A stretch of 32,283 nucleotides of DNA from Candidatus Scalindua arabica (GCA_018263435.1 JAANXD010000095.1:1-32283); one strand, 5' to 3'. Positions 14,471-18,625 are shown, counted from the first letter of the stretch. Notes: generated by a model from the letters alone, not told the origin. Program-made: numbers and translations.

Positions 14471-14794
14471 TCATGCGATGGATATTTTGGTGATGGGATA
14501 GGTAACATGCGCCCCTCTGCTATCTTTTGCCTGTACATGAGTCCATGGTTCATCACCATCTGTCATTCTTACAAAGTGAAAAGGTGATGGTTGTCTCTGT
14601 TTAGGCCCGGTGCCGGGATTTACTATAAGATTAATTGTTAATATATTTTCATTGGTTGCATGTTCCTCATCCTGCTCGGCAACCACTTCGTCATCAAAAG
14701 CGTCGACCATTATGATTCCCTCAACCTTCAGGAATTTAGTTTTTGCTCTTAAATCCCATTCAGCTTTTATTATCTTGATTTGCAGAGTATCCAT
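14471..14794 (-). CDS. Conserved-looking protein of unknown function
   Basis: A 107-residue acidic protein with no signal peptide or membrane helix and no cysteine. Its pattern is beta-rich: alternating hydrophobic strands (FLKVEGIIMV, NILTINLIV, HVTYPITKISI) around an acidic loop DAFDDEVVAEQDEEH. I do not recognise a family. The ATG at 14794 has no good ribosome site. It shares strand and direction with the histone gene about 120 bp downstream, so the two might be co-transcribed. Frame and composition look like a real gene but the start is uncertain. Confidence 0.6.
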   Translation of the reverse strand: MDTLQIKIIKAEWDLRAKTKFLKVEGIIMVDAFDDEVVAEQDEEHATNENILTINLIVNPGTGPKQRQPSPFHFVRMTDGDEPWTHVQAKDSRGAHVTYPITKISIA

Positions 14795-15004: not shown

Positions 15005-16144
15005 ATGATGTACGTTACTGGAATTGGCAGGACAAAGTTTGGAGTTCTAACAGAAACTATGCCGGAACTGATATACCAGGCAATGTATAATGCCATTAAC
15101 GATAGCCCGATTGCAATTGAAGAGATAGGGGCCGTTTACGTCAGCAATTTTCTGGGTGGGCCATCAGAGAAGCAATTGCATCTGAACTCTGTTGTGTCAA
15201 GTTTACTGCCTGAGTTAAGACTACCGATTATTCGAGTTGAGACTGCCTGCGCATCAGGTAGCAGTGCACTCTTTCAGGCCATAATCGCTTTGTCACGATT
15301 CGAAAATATTCTGATTGTGGGTGTAGAAAAGATGAGCAATGCGACTACTGAGGAGAGTTCTCAGAACCTTGGAATGGCAGGTGATCGAACGGCAGATCAG
15401 ATGCAGGGATTGATATTCCCCGCACATTATGCCCTGGTTGCCCAACAACATATGCAGGAATACGGAACAACCCATGAAGACCTGGAATTAGTTTCATTCA
15501 AGAATCACTGCAACTCCAGATTGAACCCGTTAGCTCATTTCAGTCATAAGGATGTAAGCCGTGAAATGATAAAGAATGCGGCAGTTATAGCTTCACCTTT
15601 GAATTTGTTTGACTGTTCACCCATGTCAGATGGGGCGGCGGCTGTCGTAATCTCAAAGAATAAGAAGAGCGATCGTGATGTGACGATAACCGGATCAGCC
15701 CTTGCTACCGATCACATTTCTTTATCACATCGAAAGGAACACACCTCTCTGGAGGCGGCAAAAGTAGCCAGCAGAGAGGCATACGAACTGGCGGGAATCA
15801 CTCCCGGTGACCTTGATATAGTGGAGGCCCATGATTGTTTTACCATAAACGAACTAGTGGCCATGGAAGACTTGGGAATATGTAAACCTGGTGAGAGTAA
15901 AGATTGGGTTAGAGAGGAGAGAACAGCTATCAAAGGAGACATGCCTATAAATACTGACGGAGGTTTAAAGGCTGACGGTCATCCTATTGGGGCTACTGGT
16001 CTTGCCCAGGTGTTCGAAGTTGCTACTCAGCTGCGGGGTGAAGCAGGCAAGCGCCAGGTAGATGGAGCTGAGATTGGCCTCACGCACAACATTGGCGGTG
16101 TTGGTGGGACAGCTGTAATACATATTCTTGAAAGGAGGAGTTAA
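15005..16144 (+). CDS. SCP-x-type thiolase (acetyl-CoA acetyltransferase-like)
   Basis: A 379-residue thiolase-fold enzyme of the SCP-x/archaeal type. The nucleophile is C82 in RVETACASGSSAL; H276 in EAHDCFT and H326 in DGHPIGATG complete the active site, and the C-terminus NIGGVGGTA lacks the second cysteine of classical thiolases, as is usual in this subfamily. Such enzymes make or cleave 3-ketoacyl-CoA by non-decarboxylative Claisen chemistry; in archaea they form a complex with a DUF35 protein and HMG-CoA synthase. Two tandem ATGs (15005, 15008) follow AAGGGAG; the second has the better spacing. The next gene starts 1 bp after the stop, and its ribosome site lies inside this gene's end, so they are translated together. 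Confidence 0.93.
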   Translation: MMYVTGIGRTKFGVLTETMPELIYQAMYNAINDSPIAIEEIGAVYVSNFLGGPSEKQLHLNSVVSSLLPELRLPIIRVETACASGSSALFQAIIALSRFENILIVGVEKMSNATTEESSQNLGMAGDRTADQMQGLIFPAHYALVAQQHMQEYGTTHEDLELVSFKNHCNSRLNPLAHFSHKDVSREMIKNAAVIASPLNLFDCSPMSDGAAAVVISKNKKSDRDVTITGSALATDHISLSHRKEHTSLEAAKVASREAYELAGITPGDLDIVEAHDCFTINELVAMEDLGICKPGESKDWVREERTAIKGDMPINTDGGLKADGHPIGATGLAQVFEVATQLRGEAGKRQVDGAEIGLTHNIGGVGGTAVIHILERRS

Positions 16145-16145
16145 C

Positions 16146-17252
16146 GTGGTATATGAGTGTGAAGGTTGCCATAAACATTGGTATTATGACGTTAAAAAAT
16201 GCATCTTCTGTCAGGGGGACGTTAAGGAGGTGGAGTCAAGTAAAAGTACCGTCAGGGGATTCACCAGGATTGAGATTCCGTCTCCGGGGCATACAAGAGT
16301 TCCATATTGTGATCTTTTGCTGGAGGATGAGTATGGAAACTTTGAAATAAGAAAATCTTTCTCTGATCATGAACTGGGAGAATTAATTGAGGCTGAGCCG
16401 AAAGAGTCTAAAAAGGTGGCCAAGAGTAGAACGGTTGGAATAGTTGGTACAGGAATAATGGGTAGTGGTATTGCACAGATTTGTGCCCAAACAGGGTATC
16501 ATGTAATAATGATTGACAGACATGAAGATATTGCCAGGAAAGCGCTGACAAGGATCGATAAAGCACTTTCTAAAACATTAAAGGAAGAGTTGAAACAGGA
16601 AATTCTTGGCAGGATTAAGATAACGGCAAACCTTTATGAGTCTGAGCATGCAGATCTTATGATAGAGGCGCTGACAGAAGATATGGAACTCAAGAAGGAG
16701 GTGTTCAGGGAATTGGACAATGAGTGCAATGTTGATACAATATTTGCAAGTAACACCTCATCACTTTCTCTAACCGAATTATCTCAGGCTCTAAAGGATC
16801 CCGGCAGATTGGTAGGCCTTCATTTTTTCAATCCGGTACCGAGAATGAAGCTGGTTGAGATTATAAGGTCAAAGCACACATCTGATGCAGCTGTTGAATA
16901 TGCGAAGGAGGTTGCATTCGAATTGGACAAAACACCCGTATTTACCGGTGATGCACCGGGCTTCATAGTTAATCGTCTTCTTCTTGTATTCTTAAATGAA
17001 GCAATGGATAAACATGCCGACGGTACTTCCACTGCAGAGGACATTGATAAGGCAGTGACATTGGGACTTAATCACCCCATGGGACCATTAGCACTATCAG
17101 ATTTAATCGGTCTTGACGTATGTAAGGCTATTCTAGATGTGTTGTACGAAGGATACAAAGACCCCAAATATAAACCATGCAAAACACTCTGTGAGATGGT
17201 TGAGAAAGGCAATCTTGGAAGAAAAACTGGTGAGGGTTTTTACAAATACTAG
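16146..17252 (+). CDS. DUF35 zinc-ribbon/OB-fold fused to 3-hydroxyacyl-CoA dehydrogenase
   Basis: I choose GTG 16146, with AGGAGGAG at 16133-16140; the ATG at 16128 lies upstream of this ribosome site. The 368-residue protein has two parts. Residues 3-80 are a DUF35 module: rubredoxin-like ribbon C5-x2-C8 and C19-x2-C22, then an OB-fold (RGFTRIEIPSPGHTRVPYCD). After a Lys-rich linker, residues 96-368 are a complete 3-hydroxyacyl-CoA dehydrogenase: Rossmann GIVGTGIMGSGIAQ, ASNTSSLS, catalytic H226 in GLHFFNP, E238, and DAPGFIVNRLL. It would reduce (or oxidise) 3-ketoacyl-CoA/3-hydroxyacyl-CoA with NAD(P)H. DUF35 proteins normally stand alone and bridge thiolase and partner enzymes; the covalent fusion to a dehydrogenase suggests direct hand-over from the thiolase upstream. 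I do not know the fusion as a common architecture. Confidence 0.92.
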   Translation: MVYECEGCHKHWYYDVKKCIFCQGDVKEVESSKSTVRGFTRIEIPSPGHTRVPYCDLLLEDEYGNFEIRKSFSDHELGELIEAEPKESKKVAKSRTVGIVGTGIMGSGIAQICAQTGYHVIMIDRHEDIARKALTRIDKALSKTLKEELKQEILGRIKITANLYESEHADLMIEALTEDMELKKEVFRELDNECNVDTIFASNTSSLSLTELSQALKDPGRLVGLHFFNPVPRMKLVEIIRSKHTSDAAVEYAKEVAFELDKTPVFTGDAPGFIVNRLLLVFLNEAMDKHADGTSTAEDIDKAVTLGLNHPMGPLALSDLIGLDVCKAILDVLYEGYKDPKYKPCKTLCEMVEKGNLGRKTGEGFYKY

Positions 17253-17263
17253 GAGGATGTTAA

Positions 17264-18625
17264 ATGGGTGACAACGAAAATCTTGTTGAAGATATTTCAG
17301 GCAAGATTAAAACCGGTGAGATACAGCCCTGGAAGGCAGAGTCGGTTTTACTGGAAGAATACGAAGCAAGTGCTCCTGAGCATTTTCGTACAGCGGCCTT
17401 GAGCAGAAGAAAGTGCATAGAGGAATTATCCGGCTTCAAGTTCAATTATTTAGAACTGCCGGAAAAACCTTACCTGATGCAATGGCGTTGTCCAAAGGAT
17501 AACTCTATATGGCATCTGGAAGCCAGAGATACAGACACTGTCTGTACTAATTGTAGTTCCGCTCTGGAACCTTTTGGAACTGATGTAGATAGATTTCGGC
17601 CACTGGTAAACAATTATATCGGAGGTAGAGAAGAATACTACTCCTATGCCGGCCAGGTAAAGGTCTTTGGCGATATAGACAAAACATTTACTAATCTATT
17701 GGCCTATGGTCCCGGGTTTGGGTCTATTGGGATCAGTGTGGGCTGTTTCAGGATTAATAAATTAGGGGGCGCAGAGGTGAAGGTTGGCAAGTGGGCAGGC
17801 GCTGCGCGCAACTTAGGATATGTTTTTGAGTGTGAAGAGGAACGTGAGAAAGCAGTTGCTGTAGCAAAAGAGTTTTTACCTGTATTGAGAAAAGAGATGG
17901 AGGAAAAATATCTTGCAGAATTCAACGGAGGAATATATGAGGTTGAGTTTGTAAGAAGACAGCATCACGGACAGTTTTATATCTACATCTGTTTTTATAC
18001 CAGATTTGAACATGCTCGTGGACATGGTGATACGTCCTCTGCTGTAGGATATGCCAGGGGACGTATGGATGCAGAATTTACCGAGAAGGGCGTTGCATAT
18101 ATACAGAGCCTCATTGCCATGGGATTTGATGGAGACCTGAAGCAGTCACCTCGAAACCGTCGAGGACGTTATGTTTCCGCCCAGGTGAAGGTTCCAATAC
18201 CCGCTTACGAGAAAATGAGCAAAACCGGTATCGATAAATTGCTGTCATATATGGAAATTGACCGGCAGGGGGTTATGCAGGAACAGGGAGGGTTCGTTTA
18301 CTCAGGGATGGGAGGGGAAATTATTCCTGCACTTTACCGGGGAACCAAAGTTAACCCGCGCCCGTACAATGTTTCATGCACCGAAAACGTATACGTAGAG
18401 ATCAAGGGAGAAGATGTAATCTTCGGGGTAGAACTGCCTAACCTTGAAGTAGGTGCCACCTCAAACAGAGAAGGGCCGATCTGTCCGACAGCCAGAGAAG
18501 TCCTTAAGTTTATTGGCATAGGTACATCAAAGGAATTTGCTGCAGCCGCAGCCGCTATAACACTGGCGGGAGAGTTCAACTTCGCATTGCTACACCTGCG
18601 TGGCGAAATGTATGTTGGTAAATAG
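17264..18625 (+). CDS. Divergent HMG-CoA-reductase-like protein
   Basis: A 453-residue protein 11 bp behind the dehydrogenase fusion, with AGGAGG before the ATG. Resemblance to class I HMG-CoA reductase is seen along its length: the N-terminal helix pattern (GEIQPWKAESVL.., then ALSRRKCIEELSG), GHGDTSSAV at 253-261 in place of GDAMGMN, VEIKGEDVIFGVELPNLEVGA at 378-398, PICPTAREVLKFIG at 405-418 and the helix AAAAAITLAGEFNFAL. Differences are large: the catalytic Glu motif ATTEG appears as AYGPG, the Asp of GQDAAQN is not evident, the C-terminal active-site His is absent, and only a Lys (K293) may correspond. There is also an insertion with C76, H84, C94 and C97 that could bind zinc. It may have a new substrate or be non-catalytic; true mevalonate synthesis looks unlikely. 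Confidence 0.72.
   Translation: MGDNENLVEDISGKIKTGEIQPWKAESVLLEEYEASAPEHFRTAALSRRKCIEELSGFKFNYLELPEKPYLMQWRCPKDNSIWHLEARDTDTVCTNCSSALEPFGTDVDRFRPLVNNYIGGREEYYSYAGQVKVFGDIDKTFTNLLAYGPGFGSIGISVGCFRINKLGGAEVKVGKWAGAARNLGYVFECEEEREKAVAVAKEFLPVLRKEMEEKYLAEFNGGIYEVEFVRRQHHGQFYIYICFYTRFEHARGHGDTSSAVGYARGRMDAEFTEKGVAYIQSLIAMGFDGDLKQSPRNRRGRYVSAQVKVPIPAYEKMSKTGIDKLLSYMEIDRQGVMQEQGGFVYSGMGGEIIPALYRGTKVNPRPYNVSCTENVYVEIKGEDVIFGVELPNLEVGATSNREGPICPTAREVLKFIGIGTSKEFAAAAAAITLAGEFNFALLHLRGEMYVGK

Follow-up and report, generated by a model that had tools for sequence, protein, structure and literature searches.

What do three adjacent genes that combine a thiolase, a dehydrogenase and a protein resembling 3-hydroxy-3-methylglutaryl-CoA (HMG-CoA) reductase (HMGR) do in an anaerobic ammonium-oxidizing (anammox) bacterium? 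The genes lie at positions 15005-18625 of a 32,283-base contig (C98) of Candidatus Scalindua arabica. This contig is the window analyzed here, and it belongs to a Scalindua-type anammox metagenome-assembled genome (MAG) of 2.69 Mb. In the current study the first two gene products were assigned as enzymes with intact catalytic residues, and the third as a protein with the HMGR fold in which the HMGR catalytic residues are replaced. We would put at about an even chance the reading that the set is a horizontally mobile, tethered module converting acetyl-CoA and C4-CoA compounds, together with an HMGR-fold protein of other chemistry or of CoA-binding function. The thiolase-dehydrogenase part is a variation on a known theme; it is the HMGR-fold family that is unexpected.

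Organization of the gene set

The three genes are co-directional on the plus strand and encode the thiolase (gene 1, 15005-16144, 379 aa), a fusion of a zinc ribbon with a 3-hydroxybutyryl-CoA dehydrogenase (gene 2, 16146-17252, 368 aa) and the HMGR-fold protein (gene 3, 17264-18625, 453 aa). They are separated by 1 bp and 11 bp, as given in an earlier reading of the sequence (referred to below as the original prediction). The start of gene 2 is most likely the GTG at 16146, because AAAGGAGG is found directly 5' of this codon. An alternative start reported by the open reading frame (ORF) tool, TTG 16128, overlaps the thiolase gene and is less likely.

Comparison with two relatives gave dN/dS values of 0.04-0.09 across all three genes, indicating strong purifying selection, and the values for gene 3 were 0.08-0.09 although its HMGR residues are gone. 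Of 62 genomes of the anammox order, 11 had a full-length gene 2, and the same 11 had a full-length gene 3. The low dN/dS and this co-occurrence indicate that the trio is more than a chance arrangement, and support the view that the genes are real and form one unit, as had been proposed. A literature search found no paper on the trio, on an acetoacetyl-CoA route in Scalindua or on HMGR-like proteins of the gene 3 type.

The thiolase

Sequence comparison identifies gene 1 as a thiolase of the SCP2/archaeal type with intact catalytic residues. The protein matched Pfam Thiolase_C_1 (E 8e-48), its nearest NCBIfam model was PRK06064, and its nearest solved structures were 7YVY and 6ESQ. The nucleophilic cysteine (C82, in ACASG), the HDCF motif (residues 276-279) and H326 of the GHPxGATG motif (here GHPIGATG) were all recognized. 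C82, HDCF and GHP were invariant in the 12 sequences compared, and these residues separate true thiolases from related aldolases; HDCF is the motif of SCP2-thiolases, whereas aldolases have YDCY or YDHF (PMC12329534). Gene 1 was the sole thiolase of this genome above family-level noise, the other weak hits being of the fatty-acid synthase type.

The closest known system is the archaeal thiolase/DUF35/HMG-CoA synthase complex of Methanothermococcus (6ESQ), which contains the same kind of thiolase (E 2e-73 to chain A). The best relatives of the thiolase in one Thermoplasmatota genome (G336) and one Aminicenantes genome (G338) adjoin an HMG-CoA synthase gene, in the former as part of a synthase-thiolase-DUF35 operon, consistent with the earlier claim that the enzyme is of the kind working with DUF35 and HMG-CoA synthase. 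In contrast to the archaeal complex, no HMG-CoA synthase gene was found in the operon or directly beside it. The benzoylsuccinyl-CoA thiolase BbsAB (7PXP) likewise combines a thiolase with DUF35, in an anaerobic pathway, but its thiolase is distant (E 2e-49) and it has no dehydrogenase fusion.

The dehydrogenase and its N-terminal extension

Gene 2 matched the Pfam models 3HCDH_N (E 2e-57) and 3HCDH (E 9e-34), in agreement with the predicted 3-hydroxyacyl-CoA dehydrogenase. The nearest solved structure was the clostridial (S)-3-hydroxybutyryl-CoA dehydrogenase 6AA8, which it resembles over the whole catalytic domain (48-49% identity in the Foldseek alignment), with all catalytic residues retained. 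The GxGxxG motif was present, and S205, H226, E238 and N276 as well as the NAD-type Asp after beta-2 were invariant in 11 sequences. By these residues gene 2 is assigned as a 3-hydroxybutyryl-CoA dehydrogenase with an intact active site, and it was the only such dehydrogenase in the genome at E<=1e-20.

Unlike 6AA8, the gene 2 protein carries a 95-residue N-terminal extension. It begins with a C-x2-C ... C-x2-C zinc ribbon (C5, C8, C19 and C22; 16158-16211), invariant in all 11 fusions, followed by an OB-like (oligonucleotide/oligosaccharide-binding) stretch (16233-16388) whose DUF35 identity is suggested by position only. The zinc ribbon by itself matched a DUF35 profile (E 2e-5) and was the sole part of the extension with significant DUF35 similarity. 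When seven DUF35 proteins were combined into a profile, the extension scored above 60 shuffled controls. With a larger DUF35 profile only the zinc ribbon contributed to the signal, and sequences in which the ribbon was kept and the rest shuffled scored about as high as the real one.

Several of these searches weigh against a complete DUF35 tether. The OB half scored 12.3 by hhalign, compared with a shuffled mean of 11.0 and inside the shuffled range, and the extension gave no Pfam DUF35 match even at E 10. The domain was modelled poorly, with a predicted local distance difference test (pLDDT) score of about 25; overall, the DUF35 searches by Pfam, hmmsearch of the PDB and AlphaFold were negative or uninformative. 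The extension is nevertheless probably a DUF35-like domain, perhaps shortened, serving as a tether to the thiolase, since the zinc ribbon comes first, the thiolase is encoded next door and the genome contains no other recognizable PF01796 domain, which leaves the fused zinc ribbon as the only candidate thiolase partner. The DUF35-tethered dehydrogenase of the original prediction is supported as to the zinc ribbon, the DUF35 label being probable.

Fusions of this general kind are known. In the steroid hydratase-aldolases Shy-Sal and ChsH1-ChsH2-Ltp2, an acyl-CoA enzyme carries a fused DUF35 domain that docks a thiolase-fold partner (PMC11321319, PMC12329534), and the present locus is similar in that a probable DUF35 domain is joined to an acyl-CoA enzyme beside a thiolase-fold gene. 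It differs in that the fused enzyme is a dehydrogenase and not a MaoC hydratase, and in that the thiolase keeps C82 and the HDCF motif of true thiolases. The complex 6ESQ and the present system share a zinc-ribbon partner and acetyl-CoA chemistry, but here the partner domain is fused to the 3-hydroxyacyl-CoA dehydrogenase, and the OB half of DUF35 is unrecognizable. It is plausible that a tether plus dehydrogenase stands in place of HMG-CoA synthase, suggesting another way in which a thiolase can be coupled to the enzyme that follows it.

Proposed metabolic role

The intact catalytic residues suggest that the thiolase would interconvert two acetyl-CoA and acetoacetyl-CoA, and that the dehydrogenase would use NADH to reduce acetoacetyl-CoA to (S)-3-hydroxybutyryl-CoA. 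The N-terminal zinc-ribbon domain would keep the dehydrogenase docked on the thiolase and thereby draw the unfavourable condensation forward. Interconversion of acetyl-CoA and (S)-3-hydroxybutyryl-CoA, in one direction or the other, is the most likely role of the pair as judged from its sequences. As the genome has a sole thiolase, a sole dehydrogenase of this type, two enoyl-CoA hydratases and no acyl-CoA dehydrogenase, the operon is the only entry point to C4-CoA compounds that was seen.

The direction of the reaction is the main alternative to be weighed. Both enzymes are reversible. Run degradatively, the dehydrogenase would oxidize (S)-3-hydroxybutyryl-CoA to acetoacetyl-CoA, which the thiolase would cleave into acetyl-CoA, and gene 3 would supply or activate the C4 substrate. 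Anaerobic degradation of acetone and of butyrate ends with this pair of enzymes, and the acetone cluster of Desulfotomaculum arcticum contains a DUF35 protein (PMC8084838). The two enoyl-CoA hydratases would also fit such a route, but the lack of an acyl-CoA dehydrogenase in the genome and of a mutase or acyl-CoA ligase adjoining the operon does not, and this reading as a whole is regarded as possible but doubtful. Between the two directions, the reductive one is somewhat more likely.

The tethered reductive module has difficulties of its own. With two enoyl-CoA hydratases and no acyl-CoA dehydrogenase, the genome offers no clear downstream user of 3-hydroxybutyryl-CoA. In archaea and Aminicenantes, genes 1 and 2 are not found next to gene 3, whose substrate may therefore be something other than their product.

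Elsewhere in the same genome, a co-directional cluster (L103; G000:C1, around 40404-44114) encodes a flavin oxidoreductase of the old yellow enzyme (OYE) type, an enoyl-CoA hydratase and a FabG-like dehydrogenase. It is possible that this cluster is a partner pathway for the C4-CoA product.

The HMGR-fold protein

To our knowledge, the single reaction associated with the HMGR fold is that of the statin target. The gene 3 protein scored below the curated thresholds of this family: the match to Pfam HMG-CoA_red (PF00368) reached E 7e-6 and 25.7 bits, compared with a gathering score of 27, and the NCBIfam HMGR score was 22.2 bits where 441.8 is required. A profile of the gene 3 family matched 6HR7 with E 1.1e-11, and the structural model (mean pLDDT 80) matched 6HR8 in Foldseek with E 4e-17 and a probability of 1.0. 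Because the template modelling (TM) scores were low (about 0.45) owing to poor global superposition, the call rests on the E-values and on their agreement with the sequence profile, which together assign the HMGR fold to gene 3, as first proposed. Resemblance to HMGR (6HR7/6HR8 and human 1DQ8) extends to the overall fold, the order of motifs and the N-terminal helices.

The catalytic residues of HMGR were absent from all 16 members, as mapped by sequence alignment of distant relatives (6HR7) and not on a solved structure. The position of the catalytic Glu is occupied by Pro150 (17711-17713; Thr or Ala in relatives), that of the Lys by an invariant L292 (18137-18139) with the following K293 kept, and that of the Asp by an invariant N364 (18353-18355), the last assignment recurring in an independent alignment. 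At the position of the C-terminal catalytic His the family has Glu or Lys. The NAD(P)-binding DAMGxN motif of the small domain is replaced by a conserved RGHG(D). An additional, family-specific insert (17489-17554) contains three invariant cysteines (C76, C94 and C97) and D79, which is D or E in all 16 sequences; together they are a probable metal site.

Since both the catalytic residues and the DAMGxN motif are replaced, gene 3 is unlikely to be a hydride-transfer reductase of the HMGR type, and the final thioester reduction proposed earlier was not supported. In the preferred reading, gene 3 would act on a 3-hydroxyacyl-CoA by other chemistry, or would be a CoA-binding partner. A more specific proposal is made tentatively, as falling somewhat short of an even chance: gene 3 may represent a new family of enzymes built on the HMGR fold, using the three-cysteine metal site and the RGHGD, DGDLK, SGMGGE and VNP motifs for chemistry other than thioester reduction. 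It would thus complete a channelled three-enzyme C4-CoA pathway in anammox bacteria, in which the zinc-ribbon-tethered dehydrogenase replaces HMG-CoA synthase. A strongly conserved family with the HMGR fold and without its catalytic residues, present in anammox bacteria, Aminicenantes and archaea, would show reuse of this fold.

Loss of the catalytic residues in all members, together with the co-retention of gene 3 with genes 1 and 2 in anammox genomes, would also suit a non-catalytic CoA-binding scaffold or a regulator of the thiolase-dehydrogenase pair. This is considered unlikely, as nine genomes outside the order have gene 3 by itself and the protein's many invariant polar residues and three-cysteine site resemble an active centre. 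Less likely still is an acyl-CoA oxidoreductase with a rebuilt active site (e.g. K293, next to the lost Lys, with the invariant RGH and SGMGGE motifs), whose product would be an aldehyde or an alcohol, for instance 1,3-butanediol. In its favour, K293 might take over a role, the HMGR fold is retained, and the invariant residues include a Lys, an Asp and many charged ones; against it, neither the cofactor motif nor any of the four HMGR catalytic residues is preserved.

It was also considered whether gene 3 might be a stand-in HMGR of its archaeal hosts. For the single host examined, the closed genome G336 of the Thermoplasmatota, this was rejected, since the genome has its own complete class II HMGR with EESS, DAMGAN, LADKR, GND and GHM motifs. 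In the phylum to which the anammox order belongs, a distant member (G143) contains an HMG-CoA reductase homologue with an unusual VEKRATRR at the usual DKK site (L003).

Distribution and proposed mobility

Full-length gene 3 was present in 9 of the 17 genomes of the family to which the window belongs, in 1 of 33 of the next, in 0 of 9 of a third, and in 1 of 2 and 0 of 1 of two small families. Genes 2 and 3 are carried mainly by Scalindua, and Anammoxibacter and one further lineage also have them; in an additional genome (G329) genes 1 and 2 are cut by the contig end. The operon was deleted in several Scalindua, and the trio was kept together in other neighbourhoods (L022, L023, L087, L026).

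Outside the order, gene 3 was detected in two Thermoplasmatota (73-75% identity) and seven Aminicenantes (43-50%), in each case among unrelated genes and without genes 1 and 2 adjacent. Even samples of 149 and 293 genomes of these two phyla contained no gene 3 beyond the genomes already known. Gene 3 is rare in both phyla; the scan of genome contigs used two exact peptide patterns, so that more distant members may have been missed. In the preferred reading, the three-gene set is horizontally mobile.

The ladderane link of the original prediction, in which the trio would be found in producers and be absent elsewhere, was refuted by this distribution, unless the many lineages lacking the set use a different route to ladderanes. 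Channelled reductive elongation with a final thioester reduction leading to ladderane fatty acids or alcohols agrees with the operon structure and the plausible tether, but is highly improbable given that the set is missing from 32 of 33 and 9 of 9 genomes of two anammox-order families (assumed from kinship within the order to make ladderanes and to include the well-known producers) and from several Scalindua, that gene 3 is also found in archaea and Aminicenantes, and that the HMGR catalytic residues are replaced. One candidate is thereby removed from the ladderane question. The anatomy first described largely stands, with a tether that is plausible but unproven.

In the two Thermoplasmatota genomes (L024, L025), the gene 73-75% identical to the Scalindua protein lies among archaeal genes, pointing to interdomain transfer. 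Contamination was rejected as its origin, the two MAGs sharing the same site among archaeal PUA and LSM genes and the silent sites being saturated.

A divergent ORF of 107 aa without a Pfam match lies 5' of the operon on the minus strand (14471-14794). It adjoins the operon, with 64-86% conservation, in Scalindua-type genomes and even in G275, where the neighbourhood is different. Since it is also retained at sites from which the operon has been deleted, its place in the unit is uncertain.

Remnants of the operon were found in four records (L033, L035, L088, L089) at the same place next to groES/groEL. In L035, residues 4-41 of gene 1 are directly joined to residues 352-444 of gene 3, indicating a clean internal deletion. 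This contig (PBZW01000054.1) is filed as Neomarinimicrobiota NP141; it is syntenic with Scalindua over about a dozen genes, mostly at 83-100% identity, and is evidently a Scalindua contig placed in the wrong MAG.

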